Assembly (NCBI RefSeq): GCF_024198255.1 | Contig: NZ_JAJVKW010000005.1 | Location: 496,001 to 560,000, forward strand | Direction of reading: 5' to 3' | Origin: Myxococcus guangdongensis | GTDB taxonomy: Bacteria > Myxococcota > Myxococcia > Myxococcales > Myxococcaceae | DNA: 64,000 nucleotides | In this document: piece after piece, positions 22,936 to 26,814 of the stretch | Layout of the letters: each line of letters opens with the position of its first letter | Position numbering within the stretch: position 1 is the first letter of the stretch | Position numbers and translations under genes: made by a program | The notes under the pieces: model-generated | Told to the model about the DNA's origin: nothing | Databases searched by the model: none | Seen by the model: the letters and a program-made list of their open reading frames with translations, nothing else

Positions 22936-23020
22936 GGTTTCCCACCCATAGCGCGGCCGGAGGGGTGGAGGCGGCCGAATCGTGCGCGCCTGCTTTGGAG
23001 GACTGATATTCGGGCCTCAC

Positions 23021-24100
23021 ATGAGCGACGGCGTGCGGACAGAGATGCGAGGCGCGGTGGGGGTGGTGACGTTGGACCGGCCCAAGGCGCTCCATGCGTT
23101 GAATCTGGAGATGTGCCGGCGGCTGCTGCCCCAGTTGGAGGCCTGGCGTGCGGACCCCGCGGTGAAGGCCGTGGTCGTCCGGGGGGCGGGCGGGCGGGCC
23201 TTCTGCGCGGGAGGGGACGTGCGCGCCGTGGCGGCCTCGATGGCGGAGCCCCGGCCTGCCGACGCGGAGCGCCTGTCGCGGGAGTTCTTCCGCGCCGAGT
23301 ACGCGCTGAACCACCTCATCCACCACTTCGGCAAGCCGTACATCTCGCTCGTGGACGGCATCTGCATGGGCGGCGGGCTGGGCCTGTCCATCCACGGGGC
23401 ATACCGCGTCGTCACCGAGAAGCTGGTGCTGGCGATGCCGGAGACGGGGATTGGCCTGTTCCCGGACGTGGGCGGAGGCTGGTTCCTGCCGCGCTTCCCG
23501 GGCGAGTCGGGGACGTACCTGGGCCTGACGGGCGCGCGGTGCAGCGCGGCGGACGCGATGTGGCTCGGCTACGGGACTCACTTCGTGGAGTCGGCGCGAC
23601 TGGAGACGGTGCTGGAGGCGCTGGTGGGCGCCGAGTGGGGCGAGGGCCTGTCGAGCGCGGTGGTGGAGCGGCTGCTGAAGGAGTTCCACGCGGACGCGGG
23701 GACGTCGGTGCTGGCCACGCAGCACGTGGGGATGGACCGGTGCTTCGCGGCCGAGCGGGTGGAGGACATCCAGCAGGCGCTGGAGGCAGAAGGGACGGCG
23801 TGGGCGCAGGAGACGTGGGCCACGCTGGTGCGCATGTGCCCCATGAGCCTGAAGGTGACGCTGCGCCAACTGCGCATGGGTCGCACGCGCGACTACGACG
23901 AGATGCTGTCGGTGGAGTACCGGCTGAGCCAGTCGATGACGGCGCGGGCCGACTTCCGCGAGGGCATCCGCGCGGTGCTGGTGGACAAGGACAACAAGCC
24001 GCGCTGGCACCCGGGAACGCTGGGCGACGTCTCCGATGCGGACGTGGAGGCGTGCTTCGTGTCCCCGGATGGGGATGAGCTGGTGCTGTCGCGCAGCTGA
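23021..24100 (+). CDS. 3-hydroxyisobutyryl-CoA hydrolase (crotonase superfamily)
   Basis: 359 residues, the size of HIBCH enzymes rather than the ~260 of simple enoyl-CoA hydratases. Motifs: RPKALHALNLEM, the oxyanion-hole strands (GRAFCAGGDVRAVAA and GICMGGGLGLSIHG) and PETGIGLFPDVGGG with the catalytic Glu. The extended C-terminal half contains LKVTLRQLRMG and a YRLSQSMTARADFREGIRA helix typical of this hydrolase. It releases 3-hydroxyisobutyrate from its CoA ester in valine degradation, a pathway important for branched-chain acyl-CoA supply in myxobacteria. ATG 23021 was chosen; an upstream in-frame start adds 13 atypical residues. Confidence 0.88.
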   Translation: MSDGVRTEMRGAVGVVTLDRPKALHALNLEMCRRLLPQLEAWRADPAVKAVVVRGAGGRAFCAGGDVRAVAASMAEPRPADAERLSREFFRAEYALNHLIHHFGKPYISLVDGICMGGGLGLSIHGAYRVVTEKLVLAMPETGIGLFPDVGGGWFLPRFPGESGTYLGLTGARCSAADAMWLGYGTHFVESARLETVLEALVGAEWGEGLSSAVVERLLKEFHADAGTSVLATQHVGMDRCFAAERVEDIQQALEAEGTAWAQETWATLVRMCPMSLKVTLRQLRMGRTRDYDEMLSVEYRLSQSMTARADFREGIRAVLVDKDNKPRWHPGTLGDVSDADVEACFVSPDGDELVLSRS

Positions 24101-24104
24101 GCGC

Positions 24105-24971
24105 TCAGCGTGTGCTGGAGGGGCTCTTCAGGGCCTGCTTCACGAAGTCGACGCAGGCCTCGGGTGCCTCCTCGTGGGGCCAGTGGCCCGCGTCGGGGAG
24201 CGTGTCCACGGTGGCGTGAGGCCAGGCCTTCCGGAACCGTTCGAGGACCACCGGAGGGAAGGCGGCGTCGCGCAGGCCCCAGATGAAGTGGACGGGGGTC
24301 TTCGCGAACCGCTCACGCCGGTCCCAGAGGGACTGGAAGAAGGGCGTGGACCCCGCGAGGCTCTTGGCGAGGGCCCACAGCACGCGCTCGCGCGAGTCCG
24401 CGTCGGGGAACATGAAGGTGTACTGGTTCCACATCTTCTCGGGGCGCGGCCCCTTGCCCCAGGCCGACTTCGCGATGAGGAACGAGAGGTTCACCTTCCG
24501 GTACAGCCAGCGGAAGAGCCCGCCGCCCGCCATGCGCGCGGCCCTGGCGAGCGAGGGCTCGTCGACGAAGGGCCAGGCGATGGTGTTGAGGAGCACCACG
24601 CGCTCGATGCGCTCCGGATGGGAGAGCGCGTAGTCGAGCGAGATGGGGCCGCCGAAGTCGTGGGCCACCAGGGTGAAGGGGGGCAGGTTCAGCGCCTCGA
24701 TGACCGCGGCGAAGCGGCGCGCGTGGGCCTCGGGCGAGTAGTCCGCGTCCGGTGGCCGGGGCGACAGGCCGAAGCCCAGGTGGTCCACCGCGATGCAGCG
24801 GTGCGTGGCGGAGAAGGCGCGGATGAGCGCACGCCACTCGAAGGACCAGGTGGGGGTTCCATGCACGAAGACGATGGGCGGCCCCTGGCCCTCGTCCACC
24901 ACTGACAGTCCAGCCACCTCACGCACGTTGAAGGGAAAAGCCTCTCGGTCGACCCAGGCGGGAACTTGCAT
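24105..24971 (-). CDS. Alpha/beta hydrolase of the haloalkane dehalogenase fold
   Basis: 288 residues. The oxyanion region VFVHGTPTWSFEWR and nucleophile elbow VAHDFGGPISL use Asp (105), not Ser, as in haloalkane dehalogenases. Asp 235 (IWGLRDAAF) and His 263 (DAGHWPHEE) complete the triad, in the spacing of the DhlA type. The halide-binding Trp that follows the nucleophile in true dehalogenases is Phe 106, and the Asn/Glu after HG is Thr 39. So the fold and triad are clear but dehalogenase activity is uncertain. It is divergent from a MarR gene with two inverted repeats between them, suggesting induction by a small organic compound. It ends 4 bases from the convergent upstream gene. Confidence 0.82.
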   Translation of the reverse strand: MQVPAWVDREAFPFNVREVAGLSVVDEGQGPPIVFVHGTPTWSFEWRALIRAFSATHRCIAVDHLGFGLSPRPPDADYSPEAHARRFAAVIEALNLPPFTLVAHDFGGPISLDYALSHPERIERVVLLNTIAWPFVDEPSLARAARMAGGGLFRWLYRKVNLSFLIAKSAWGKGPRPEKMWNQYTFMFPDADSRERVLWALAKSLAGSTPFFQSLWDRRERFAKTPVHFIWGLRDAAFPPVVLERFRKAWPHATVDTLPDAGHWPHEEAPEACVDFVKQALKSPSSTR

Positions 24972-24979
24972 GGAGGATA

Positions 24980-24995
24980 GTCAATGGTTCTTGAC
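24980..24995. promoter_or_regulatory. Candidate MarR operator 1
   Basis: GTCAATGGTTCTTGAC: arms GTCAA and TTGAC around six bases, nine bases before the hydrolase ATG. It shares its layout and right half with the site at 25003-25018. Confidence 0.55.
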
Positions 24996-25002
24996 CAATA
25001 AA

Positions 25003-25018
25003 GTCAAGTAGACTTGAC
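25003..25018. promoter_or_regulatory. Candidate MarR operator 2
   Basis: GTCAAGTAGACTTGAC: perfect 7-base arms around two bases, ending three bases before the MarR ATG. Start-to-start distance from the first site is 23 bases, about two helical turns. TAGACT inside it could be a -10 element. Confidence 0.62.
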
Positions 25019-25021
25019 TGG

Positions 25022-25495
25022 ATGAAGAGGAAGGACGCGCTCGAGGATGTGAAGAAGCTTCAGGCCAGCAGCCTGGGTTACGTGCTCATCCGGTGTGGGC
25101 AGTTGTTCAACGAGTTGGGGATGCAGGCGGTCAACTCCGAGGCCGGCTACCCGATGATGCGAGAGGTCCACGCGCGCATCCTCCCGTACCTGGAGAATCC
25201 GGACGGCGTGCGCATCACGGAGCTCGCGCGCAGCCTGGGCGTGACGAAGCAGGCGGTGCAGCCGGTCATCGCGGAGCTCGCGGAGTTCGGCGCGGTGCGG
25301 ATTGAACCGGACCCCGATGACGCCCGTGCGCGGCGGGTCGTCTTGACGGAGAAGGGCATCGCGGCCATGCGGCACGGGACGACGAAGCTGGTGGAGATCG
25401 ATCGGCGGGTGGCGAAGCGCCTGGGCGCGGAGGAGACCCGGGAGCTGCACGGGCTCTTGACCCGACTGTTCGAGGTGCTGAAGGCGCGGGACTGA
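25022..25495 (+). CDS. MarR-family transcriptional regulator
   Basis: 157 residues. Helical dimerisation segments flank a winged helix: ITELARSLGVTKQAVQPVIA is the helix-turn-helix, and the wing is VRIEPDPDDARARRVVLTEKG, the DxRxxxV/LT pattern diagnostic of MarR proteins. It is divergent from the dehalogenase-fold hydrolase and should repress it and itself through the inverted repeats in the 50-base gap. There is no ribosome binding site and the operator abuts the start, so the transcript may be leaderless. The ligand is unknown. Confidence 0.9.
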   Translation: MKRKDALEDVKKLQASSLGYVLIRCGQLFNELGMQAVNSEAGYPMMREVHARILPYLENPDGVRITELARSLGVTKQAVQPVIAELAEFGAVRIEPDPDDARARRVVLTEKGIAAMRHGTTKLVEIDRRVAKRLGAEETRELHGLLTRLFEVLKARD

Positions 25496-25544
25496 AGCGC
25501 GTGCCTTTGTCGGGGCGGCGTCGTCACTCTTGAGGTGGAGCCGC

Positions 25545-25786
25545 GAGGCCCGGGGGCGGCGAAGGACAGGGCCTCGTTGTTGGCGTCGGGGATTGCGCCG
25601 AGTGAGCACGGCGTCGTGGAGTCGTGAGGCCCGGGGGCGGCGAAGGACAGGGCCTCGTTGTCGGCGTTGGGGATTGCGCCGAGTGAGCACGGCGTCGTGG
25701 AGTCGTGAGGCCTGGGGCGGCGAAGGACAGGGCCTCGTTGTCGGCGTCGGGGATTGCGCCGAGTGAGCATGGCGTTGGAGTTCGCC
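25545..25786. repeat. 81-bp tandem repeat, three copies
   Basis: Copies start at 25545, 25626 and 25707. The first two differ at only two bases; the third has a one-base deletion and decays at its end. The unit is 27 codons long, so frames stay open across it, but translations are low-complexity and no frame has a convincing start. It lies between the convergent MarR and DUF523 genes and abuts a second repeat family. Confidence 0.9.
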
Positions 25787-25990
25787 GACGTTGCTGGCGA
25801 GCGCGCCTCGTCCGTCGAGGTGAGGGCACGTCGCCGGGCTTCGGTAGAGGCCGCCTCGTGGGCCGATGCGCCGGGTGCTCCGGACGTTGCTGGCGAGCGC
25901 GCCTCGGCCGTCGGGGCGAGGACACGTCGTCGGGCTTCGGTAGAGGCCGCCTCGCGGGCCGAGGCGCCGGGTGCTCCGGACGTTGCTGGC
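25787..25990. repeat. 96-bp tandem repeat, two copies plus a stub
   Basis: Copies start at 25787 and 25883 (about 93% identical), and a 12-base third start (GACGTTGCTGGC at 25979) runs into the DUF523 stop codon. The unit is 32 codons. It differs in sequence from the 81-bp family next to it. Confidence 0.9.
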
Positions 25991-26814
25991 TACAGCTCTT
26001 CGTCGCTGACGACGGTGATGTCCTTGGAGCGCAGCAGGGCGGTGGTGATGCCTTCGCCCGAGCGCAGCACTCCGGACTCGTAGACGCGCTGGCTCCCGCA
26101 GGAGGGGCTCTTCTCCTTGAGCAGCGCGACCGTCACGTCGAAGCGTTGCGCGGCATCGAGCGCGAGGAGGGCTCCACGCTGGAAGTCCTCGGTGCGGTCC
26201 GTGCGTGCTTCGCGCTCCAGCGCGCGAGCCTGCCCCGCCCAGACGTCGACGCCCGTGCCGCCGCGCAGGTCGACCGGAGGGCGAGGAACGGGCAGCCCGG
26301 AGGCGACCTCGGGGCAGATCGGCACGACCGCCTTTCCCTCGAGGGCCGCGAGCACTCGCTCCGAGCGCTGCGAGCGTCCGTCATAGCGGCACGCTTCGCC
26401 CAGGAGGCACGCGCTCACCAGCACCACGGGGGCTTCGCGAAGGGCGGCGCGGCGCGCTTCCTGTGGCGGTACCTCTCGCCCCCGTGCGTGACAGCCCGCG
26501 GCTGCCGAGGGTGACGCGGTCGTGCTCGAACGCGGCACTGAGGCGTGCCCTGGCGGAATGGCGTCGCCCTCGGTGGGGCTCGCTGCCCGAGCGTCCGTAT
26601 CGGTGGGCTTCAAGTGCTCGGAGGCCGACTGGCGCGGATGGGTGGCTCCGTCGCCACCCTTGGCCGTCAGCCTGGCGTCCGAAGCCGACCTTGCCTCCGG
26701 AGTGGCGCGCGAGCGACTCGACTGCGTGATTCCACCTTCGTCCGCCGGACCCTCGGCGTCACTGTCCACCGAGGATGCGAGGCTCGTACCGGCCCGCGCG
26801 TCCTCGCGTGTCAC
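25990..26814 (-). CDS. DUF523 protein with long low-complexity N-terminal extension
   Basis: 274 residues. The C-terminal ~147 form a complete DUF523 domain: VVLVSACLLGEACRYDGRS, VPICPEVASGLPVPRPP and LKEKSPSCGSQRVYESG with the conserved cysteines. The first ~127 residues are Ser/Ala/Thr-rich and match nothing. The GTG start at 26814 overlaps the purN stop by 4 bases (GTGA), the arrangement seen throughout this operon, which favours the long form. Against it, the extension uses clearly more A/T-ending codons (roughly a quarter of third positions) than its neighbours, and a GTG before VVLVSACLLG would give the usual short protein. Function of DUF523 is unknown. Confidence 0.75.
   Translation of the reverse strand: MTREDARAGTSLASSVDSDAEGPADEGGITQSSRSRATPEARSASDARLTAKGGDGATHPRQSASEHLKPTDTDARAASPTEGDAIPPGHASVPRSSTTASPSAAAGCHARGREVPPQEARRAALREAPVVLVSACLLGEACRYDGRSQRSERVLAALEGKAVVPICPEVASGLPVPRPPVDLRGGTGVDVWAGQARALEREARTDRTEDFQRGALLALDAAQRFDVTVALLKEKSPSCGSQRVYESGVLRSGEGITTALLRSKDITVVSDEEL

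Follow-up and report, generated by a model that had tools for sequence, protein, structure and literature searches.

Paired palindromes between divergent marR and alpha/beta-hydrolase genes of Myxococcus guangdongensis: candidate operators that appear to follow the regulator

Introduction

In the genome of Myxococcus guangdongensis, a gap of only 50 bp separates two divergent genes, one encoding a MarR-family regulator and the other an alpha/beta-fold hydrolase, and two similar palindromes are packed into it. What are these palindromes for, and are they tied to the regulator, to the enzyme or to neither? The question is addressed here by computational analysis of the surrounding stretch of 64,000 nucleotides (the window, to whose numbering the coordinates of this locus refer) and of related loci in the same family, in the phylum and beyond.

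Results

The divergent gap and its twin sites

The gap is bounded by the ATG codons of the hydrolase gene (24971, minus strand) and the MarR gene (25022, plus strand) and contains both sites (Table 1). The initial annotation had described two 16-bp inverted repeats in a 50-base gap between divergent MarR and hydrolase genes, with common GTCAA left ends and CTTGAC right halves and each next to one start codon. All of this proved correct: the start of site 1 is 8 bp from the start codon of the hydrolase, and the end of site 2 is 3 bp from that of MarR. The 23 bases by which the repeats were said to be apart hold as a start-to-start distance; as a separation the figure does not stand, for the sites are 7 bp apart. 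The two palindromes differ in quality, with 5 of 8 pairs matching in site 1, the weaker one, and 7 of 8 in site 2. In the latter, 8-bp arms (AGTCAAGT/ACTTGACT) flank a central AG and span 25002–25019.

Table 1. Features of the divergent locus (coordinates in the window).
Feature	Position	Strand	Description
Alpha/beta-fold hydrolase	24105..24971	-	288 aa; most similar to haloalkane dehalogenase-like proteins of subfamily III; triad of D105, H263 and D235, with T39 and F106 at the halide-binding positions
Divergent intergenic gap	24972..25021	.	50 bp; both candidate operators inside
Operator 1 (candidate)	24980..24995	.	GTCAATGGTTCTTGAC; imperfect palindrome, hydrolase-proximal
Operator 2 (candidate)	25003..25018	.	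GTCAAGTAGACTTGAC; near-perfect palindrome, marR-proximal
MarR-family regulator	25022..25495	+	157 aa; one cysteine (Cys25), recognition helix beginning with GVTKQA; Pfam, AF2 model, PDB matches

A consensus scan found no sigma-70-like promoter in 24850–25150, so we only infer that the promoters overlap the sites. No co-directional gene follows closely downstream of marR (the next large plausible gene, at 25990–26814, is on the minus strand), and the local unit therefore consists of two genes. At the other end, the hydrolase gene is convergent towards an ECH_2 gene (22982–24100). Two tandem-repeat arrays lie at 25535–25990, in the stretch from marR to the minus-strand gene beyond it, one of 3.0 copies of an 81-bp unit (95% matches) and one of 2.1 copies of a 96-bp unit (93%).

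The regulator and the hydrolase

The regulator contains a MarR winged-helix domain that scores above the cut-offs of both PF12802 (MarR_2; 34.5 bits, cut-off 27) and PF01047 (MarR; 28.2 bits, cut-off 24.6). Its AF2 model has a mean pLDDT of 91.5 and matches MarR chains in the PDB, DNA complexes among them, with Z up to 14.9 and an rmsd of 3.1 over 144; absence from this fold-search list excludes no family. In its anatomy, as read from the sequence and the orthologue survey, the locus is of the MarR type, with palindromic sites of 16–20 bp beside a divergent gene.

The partner had been labelled a dehalogenase-fold hydrolase, a name that holds for the sequence family and fails at the halide-binding residues. 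Its top match in the PDB is 8ooh (E 1.5e-49), which we take to be DhmeA, a haloalkane dehalogenase-like protein of subfamily III, with the nucleophile, base and acid aligned and common to both proteins. In all 10 aligned sequences this triad of D105 (nucleophile), H263 (base) and D235 (acid) is invariant. The two halide-stabilising residues of dehalogenases (Trp plus Asn, or two Trp) were not found at the Asn and Trp positions of DhmeA, which are the positions compared, the cap-domain Trp position of subfamily I lying outside the comparison: T39 is present in 10 of 10 sequences, and F106 is Phe in nine and Tyr in one. In DhmeA itself the halide-binding residues are N63 and W130 according to the available part of its description (PMC10503415), where the Myxococcus hydrolase has T39 and F106. 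Because both usual halide-binding residues are absent (Thr39 for Asn, Phe106 for Trp), dehalogenase function is doubtful. Loss of the Trp is the stronger argument, since 5mxp_A keeps it though Gln replaces the Asn. The NCBIfam equivalog cut-off for haloalkane dehalogenase was not reached either, the best score being 147.9 bits (PRK03204.1) against 466. Judged by its sequence, the protein is a dehalogenase-like hydrolase and probably no true dehalogenase.

Conservation of the paired sites in the family

Orthologues of the regulator were found in 11 of the 96 family genomes (E<=1e-20) and those of the hydrolase in 10 (E<=1e-60). All 10 are among the 11 MarR-positive genomes, and the two genes are neighbours in each. 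In the eleventh, G006 (locus L018), the match to the adjacent hydrolase is split over two reading frames, and its gene is therefore either frameshifted or misassembled. The check that the initial annotation had proposed, a motif search upstream of orthologous gene pairs, was run on these loci and bore out the expectation: the pair is present in all 11 MarR-positive family genomes at a spacing of 22–24 bp, also where the identity of the regulator is 37–58%. At the orthologous loci of M. qinghaiensis and M. eversor, the regulator is 93% identical.

Both sites are exact in L001, L009, L010, L011, L013, L014 and L017, with a total of one mismatch in L012 and L015 and of two in L016 and L018. In L013, the two genes are parted by an extra ~490 bp, with two sites next to the hydrolase gene and a third next to marR; this locus is a miss under the fixed 240-bp rule, which accordingly gives 10/11. 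Position 6 of the half-site is G in 28 of 36 symmetrised half-sites, though it was outside the search pattern. The other half-site bases were part of that pattern, and their conservation is thus partly due to selection.

Rarity of the motif

The exact motif GTCAA-N6-TTGAC occurs at two places in the 11.2-Mb genome of M. guangdongensis, both in the marR–hydrolase gap, and its reversed control at none. Relaxing the motif to at most one mismatch raises the count to 49, compared with 19 for the reversed control. Three of the 49 (L160, L162 and L169), inspected as extra regulon members, have no second good site within ~80 bp on either side, and none of seven weaker MarR-like matches in the same genome has a pair upstream. 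When two mismatches are allowed, the window contains five single motifs against 8.5 expected, and since there is no enrichment, this loose test is uninformative. A lone copy is not diagnostic, since one or more exact single copies turn up in 62 of the 96 family genomes.

The spaced pair (GTMAA-N6-TTKAC, 5–9 bp, the same again) was searched for in 195 genomes of the phylum and occurs in eight, once in each, with no control matches among the matches listed. Seven of the eight arrays are the marR–hydrolase locus. The eighth, in G032 (L170 1501–1537; G032:C5:596897–596933), is a GTAAAG..CTTTAC/GTCAAG..TTTGAC pair that adjoins a gene of dehydrogenase-like appearance by eye, along with other genes; no GVTKQ MarR was seen nearby. 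As a further control, 2364 windows of 240 bp from the flanks of the same MarR loci yielded no pair with up to two total mismatches and one with three. These flank windows took over from remote loci, actinobacterial and others, which were first intended as a negative control and carried sites. A co-occurrence probability of 1e-12 takes no account of relatedness and is left out of the argument.

Distant relatives and exchange of the partner gene

More distant regulators were drawn from the phylum sample, in which 20 of 195 genomes have a MarR match at E<=1e-25, and from a sample of named genomes, in which 79 loci were kept of 158 confirmed stretches. The DNA sites played no part in selecting these loci. 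A pair was counted if it lay just upstream of marR with no more than two mismatches per site and a spacing of 21–25 bp. Such pairs precede marR at nine of the 20 loci from other Myxococcota and at 33 of a further 61, every one of these 33 being actinobacterial; under this rule no pair was found at 11 and 28 loci, respectively. Among the 20, L148, whose aligned stretch does not look MarR-like, is counted as a miss. L149, L150, L151 and L154 are counted as misses too, yet degenerate pairs are visible there by eye. At a limit of two total mismatches, the counts are 10/11 in the family, 7/20 in other Myxococcota and 25/61 at the further loci. Most Myxococcota pairs are made of 16-mers spaced by 22–24 bp, and most actinobacterial ones of 15-mers, with 21 bp as the commonest spacing. 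The GVTKQ helix start is shared by the named distant loci partly through selection, because one of the patterns used to fetch them contains it. Two loci have more than two site-like copies: four in L067 (3895–3982), repeated every 24 bp ahead of a related MarR whose partner has no Pfam match, and three at 22 bp in L075.

The gene across the gap varies. In all 11 family loci it encodes an alpha/beta hydrolase. Among ten partners scanned in another set, seven reach the cut-off of DUF4336 (L074–L077 and L150–L152), L149 matches DUF4336 below the cut-off, L147 belongs to the carboxymuconolactone decarboxylase family and the tenth is that of L067. Two further partners were scanned: the one in L072 also reaches the cut-off for DUF4336, and the one in L081 gave no match. 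Of the ten actinobacterial partners that were scanned, nine contain a Cupin_2 domain, and the remaining one (L096) is an alpha/beta hydrolase. L070 and L073, whose MarRs are 38% and 36% identical, have a hydrolase gene upstream on the same strand and no recognisable sites. The sites keep to the regulator across these exchanges of partner, which makes operators of MarR itself their best interpretation. On this comparison of sequences the motif is seen to follow the regulator, not the enzyme, and its persistence in this MarR lineage alongside other partner genes supports the candidate reading of dual MarR operators advanced in the initial annotation.

Cys25 (25094–25096), the only cysteine of the regulator, is kept in 11 of 11 orthologues. 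The same column holds Cys in L067, L070 and L073 but no Cys in the DUF4336-linked relatives. Cys25 is a possible redox or electrophile sensor, a candidacy that comes from the alignment; its association with hydrolase linkage may just follow descent.

Discussion

A probable twin-operator switch

The twin palindromes are very probably operators through which the adjacent MarR silences its own gene and that of the hydrolase until an inducer releases it. One MarR dimer would occupy each operator, the two lying next to each other at a distance of about 2.2 helical turns and together spanning the whole 50-bp gap, which would have to contain both start-proximal promoters. Bound MarR would repress marR and the hydrolase gene alike. 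The inducer could be a small molecule, or oxidation or alkylation of the invariant Cys25 could take its place; MarR would then be released and the hydrolase made. A leaderless marR transcript is conceivable given the 3 bp from the end of operator 2 to the marR ATG, with TAGACT (25009–25014), inside operator 2, as a putative -10 element. Cooperativity between the two dimers and the substrate of the hydrolase are matters that we only infer.

Some MarR-family proteins act as activators, and the sites could be MarR operators through which the protein only autoregulates or else activates the hydrolase gene. The unequal quality of the sites, with the better palindrome on the marR side, would fit such an arrangement. 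However, two adjacent sites fill the 50-bp gap and leave little promoter room outside, and L013, where the genes are separated, has two sites by the hydrolase and one by marR, which makes this arrangement unlikely. It is far less probable that the palindromes serve another regulator and that MarR is a mere neighbour. The L170 array, near which no GVTKQ MarR was seen, speaks for this, but the motif goes with the MarR lineage when the partner is exchanged, and seven of the eight arrays adjoin this MarR.

A role of the repeats as RNA, in the form of a hairpin, attenuator or terminator in a leader, might be read from the folding of the gap, whose minus-strand RNA is folded more stably than shuffled versions (z -3.74, against -1.73 for the plus strand), and from a single terminator-like site flagged by a scanner over operator 2. 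But any two palindromes with shared halves would fold in this way, and 3 bp lie between site 2 and the start codon of marR. Moreover, the arms and the 22–24 bp phase are conserved, the central bases are free and four copies follow a 24-bp period in L067, all as expected for protein–DNA binding, and an RNA element is accordingly a very remote prospect. Least probable of all, to the point of being negligible, is a chance or mobile repeat: the lack of a single-motif excess in the window at two mismatches would agree with it, but the pair is kept in all 11 orthologous loci and the genome has only two exact copies.

Taken as operators of MarR, the sites also permit a wider evolutionary scenario, which we offer tentatively and with somewhat less than even confidence. 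GTCAAG/CTTGAC twin operators in a 21–24 bp phase would be an ancestral signature of the GVTKQA MarR subfamily in Myxococcota and Actinobacteria, regulator and operators being kept as a cassette while the divergent enzyme was exchanged (alpha/beta hydrolase, DUF4336, carboxymuconolactone decarboxylase, cupin). In the branch linked to the hydrolase, a lone sensor cysteine would have arisen in the regulator and the hydrolase would have lost its halide pocket, to serve a non-dehalogenase, possibly detoxifying, reaction.

Comparison with known systems

Divergent MarR–enzyme pairs with twin operators are already known. In the EstR/estC system of Agrobacterium tumefaciens, as described in the available part of the report, a MarR-family repressor is encoded divergently from an alpha/beta-hydrolase gene, and its two palindromic operators, OI and OII, were shown experimentally to cover both promoters (PMC5201249). 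The Myxococcus locus has the same outline (MarR family, divergent alpha/beta-hydrolase gene, two palindromic sites), whereas the EstR operator given there, GTTATCGCGATAAC, is unrelated to GTCAAG-N4-CTTGAC and the EstR operators lie farther apart than the Myxococcus pair (PMC5201249). EstR is a paralogue of OhrR, and the same portion of the report describes single-cysteine sensing via Cys16 (PMC5201249). Cys25 seems to lie further along the same helix than Cys16 of EstR, an estimate from aligned ranges with OhrR only.

CtcS/ctcR of Streptomyces aureofaciens is alike in having a MarR, a divergent gene and two protected regions, with CAAG/CTTG half-sites (CTTGTC) to set beside the CAAG/CTTG core in Myxococcus; it differs in its partner, an efflux protein rather than a hydrolase, and in the half-site spacing, and tetracyclines weaken its binding (available part of PMC6905112). 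Two other regulators were considered as guides to the operator and dropped. Rv2887 of Mycobacterium tuberculosis, also of the MarR family, is the best phmmer match of the regulator in the PDB; the footprint reported in the accessible part of its description, CGTCAGCTGAACGGCGGTCGTCGATCG, lacks the Myxococcus motif (PMC5526998). For CrtR of Corynebacterium, the portion of the source at hand gives a TTAA motif, not GTCAA/TTGAC (PMC5401885).

Biological implications

A search of the openly accessible literature found no report on this MarR, on the GTCAAG/CTTGAC motif or on a link between DUF4336 and MarR. The operator motif would predict the regulon of a widespread MarR branch that, by the same literature, is apparently unstudied, and it would tie DUF4336 proteins and dehalogenase-like hydrolases to one kind of switch. 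The locus also cautions against naming the hydrolase a dehalogenase, and it may offer a compact two-operator promoter for an inducible myxobacterial system.
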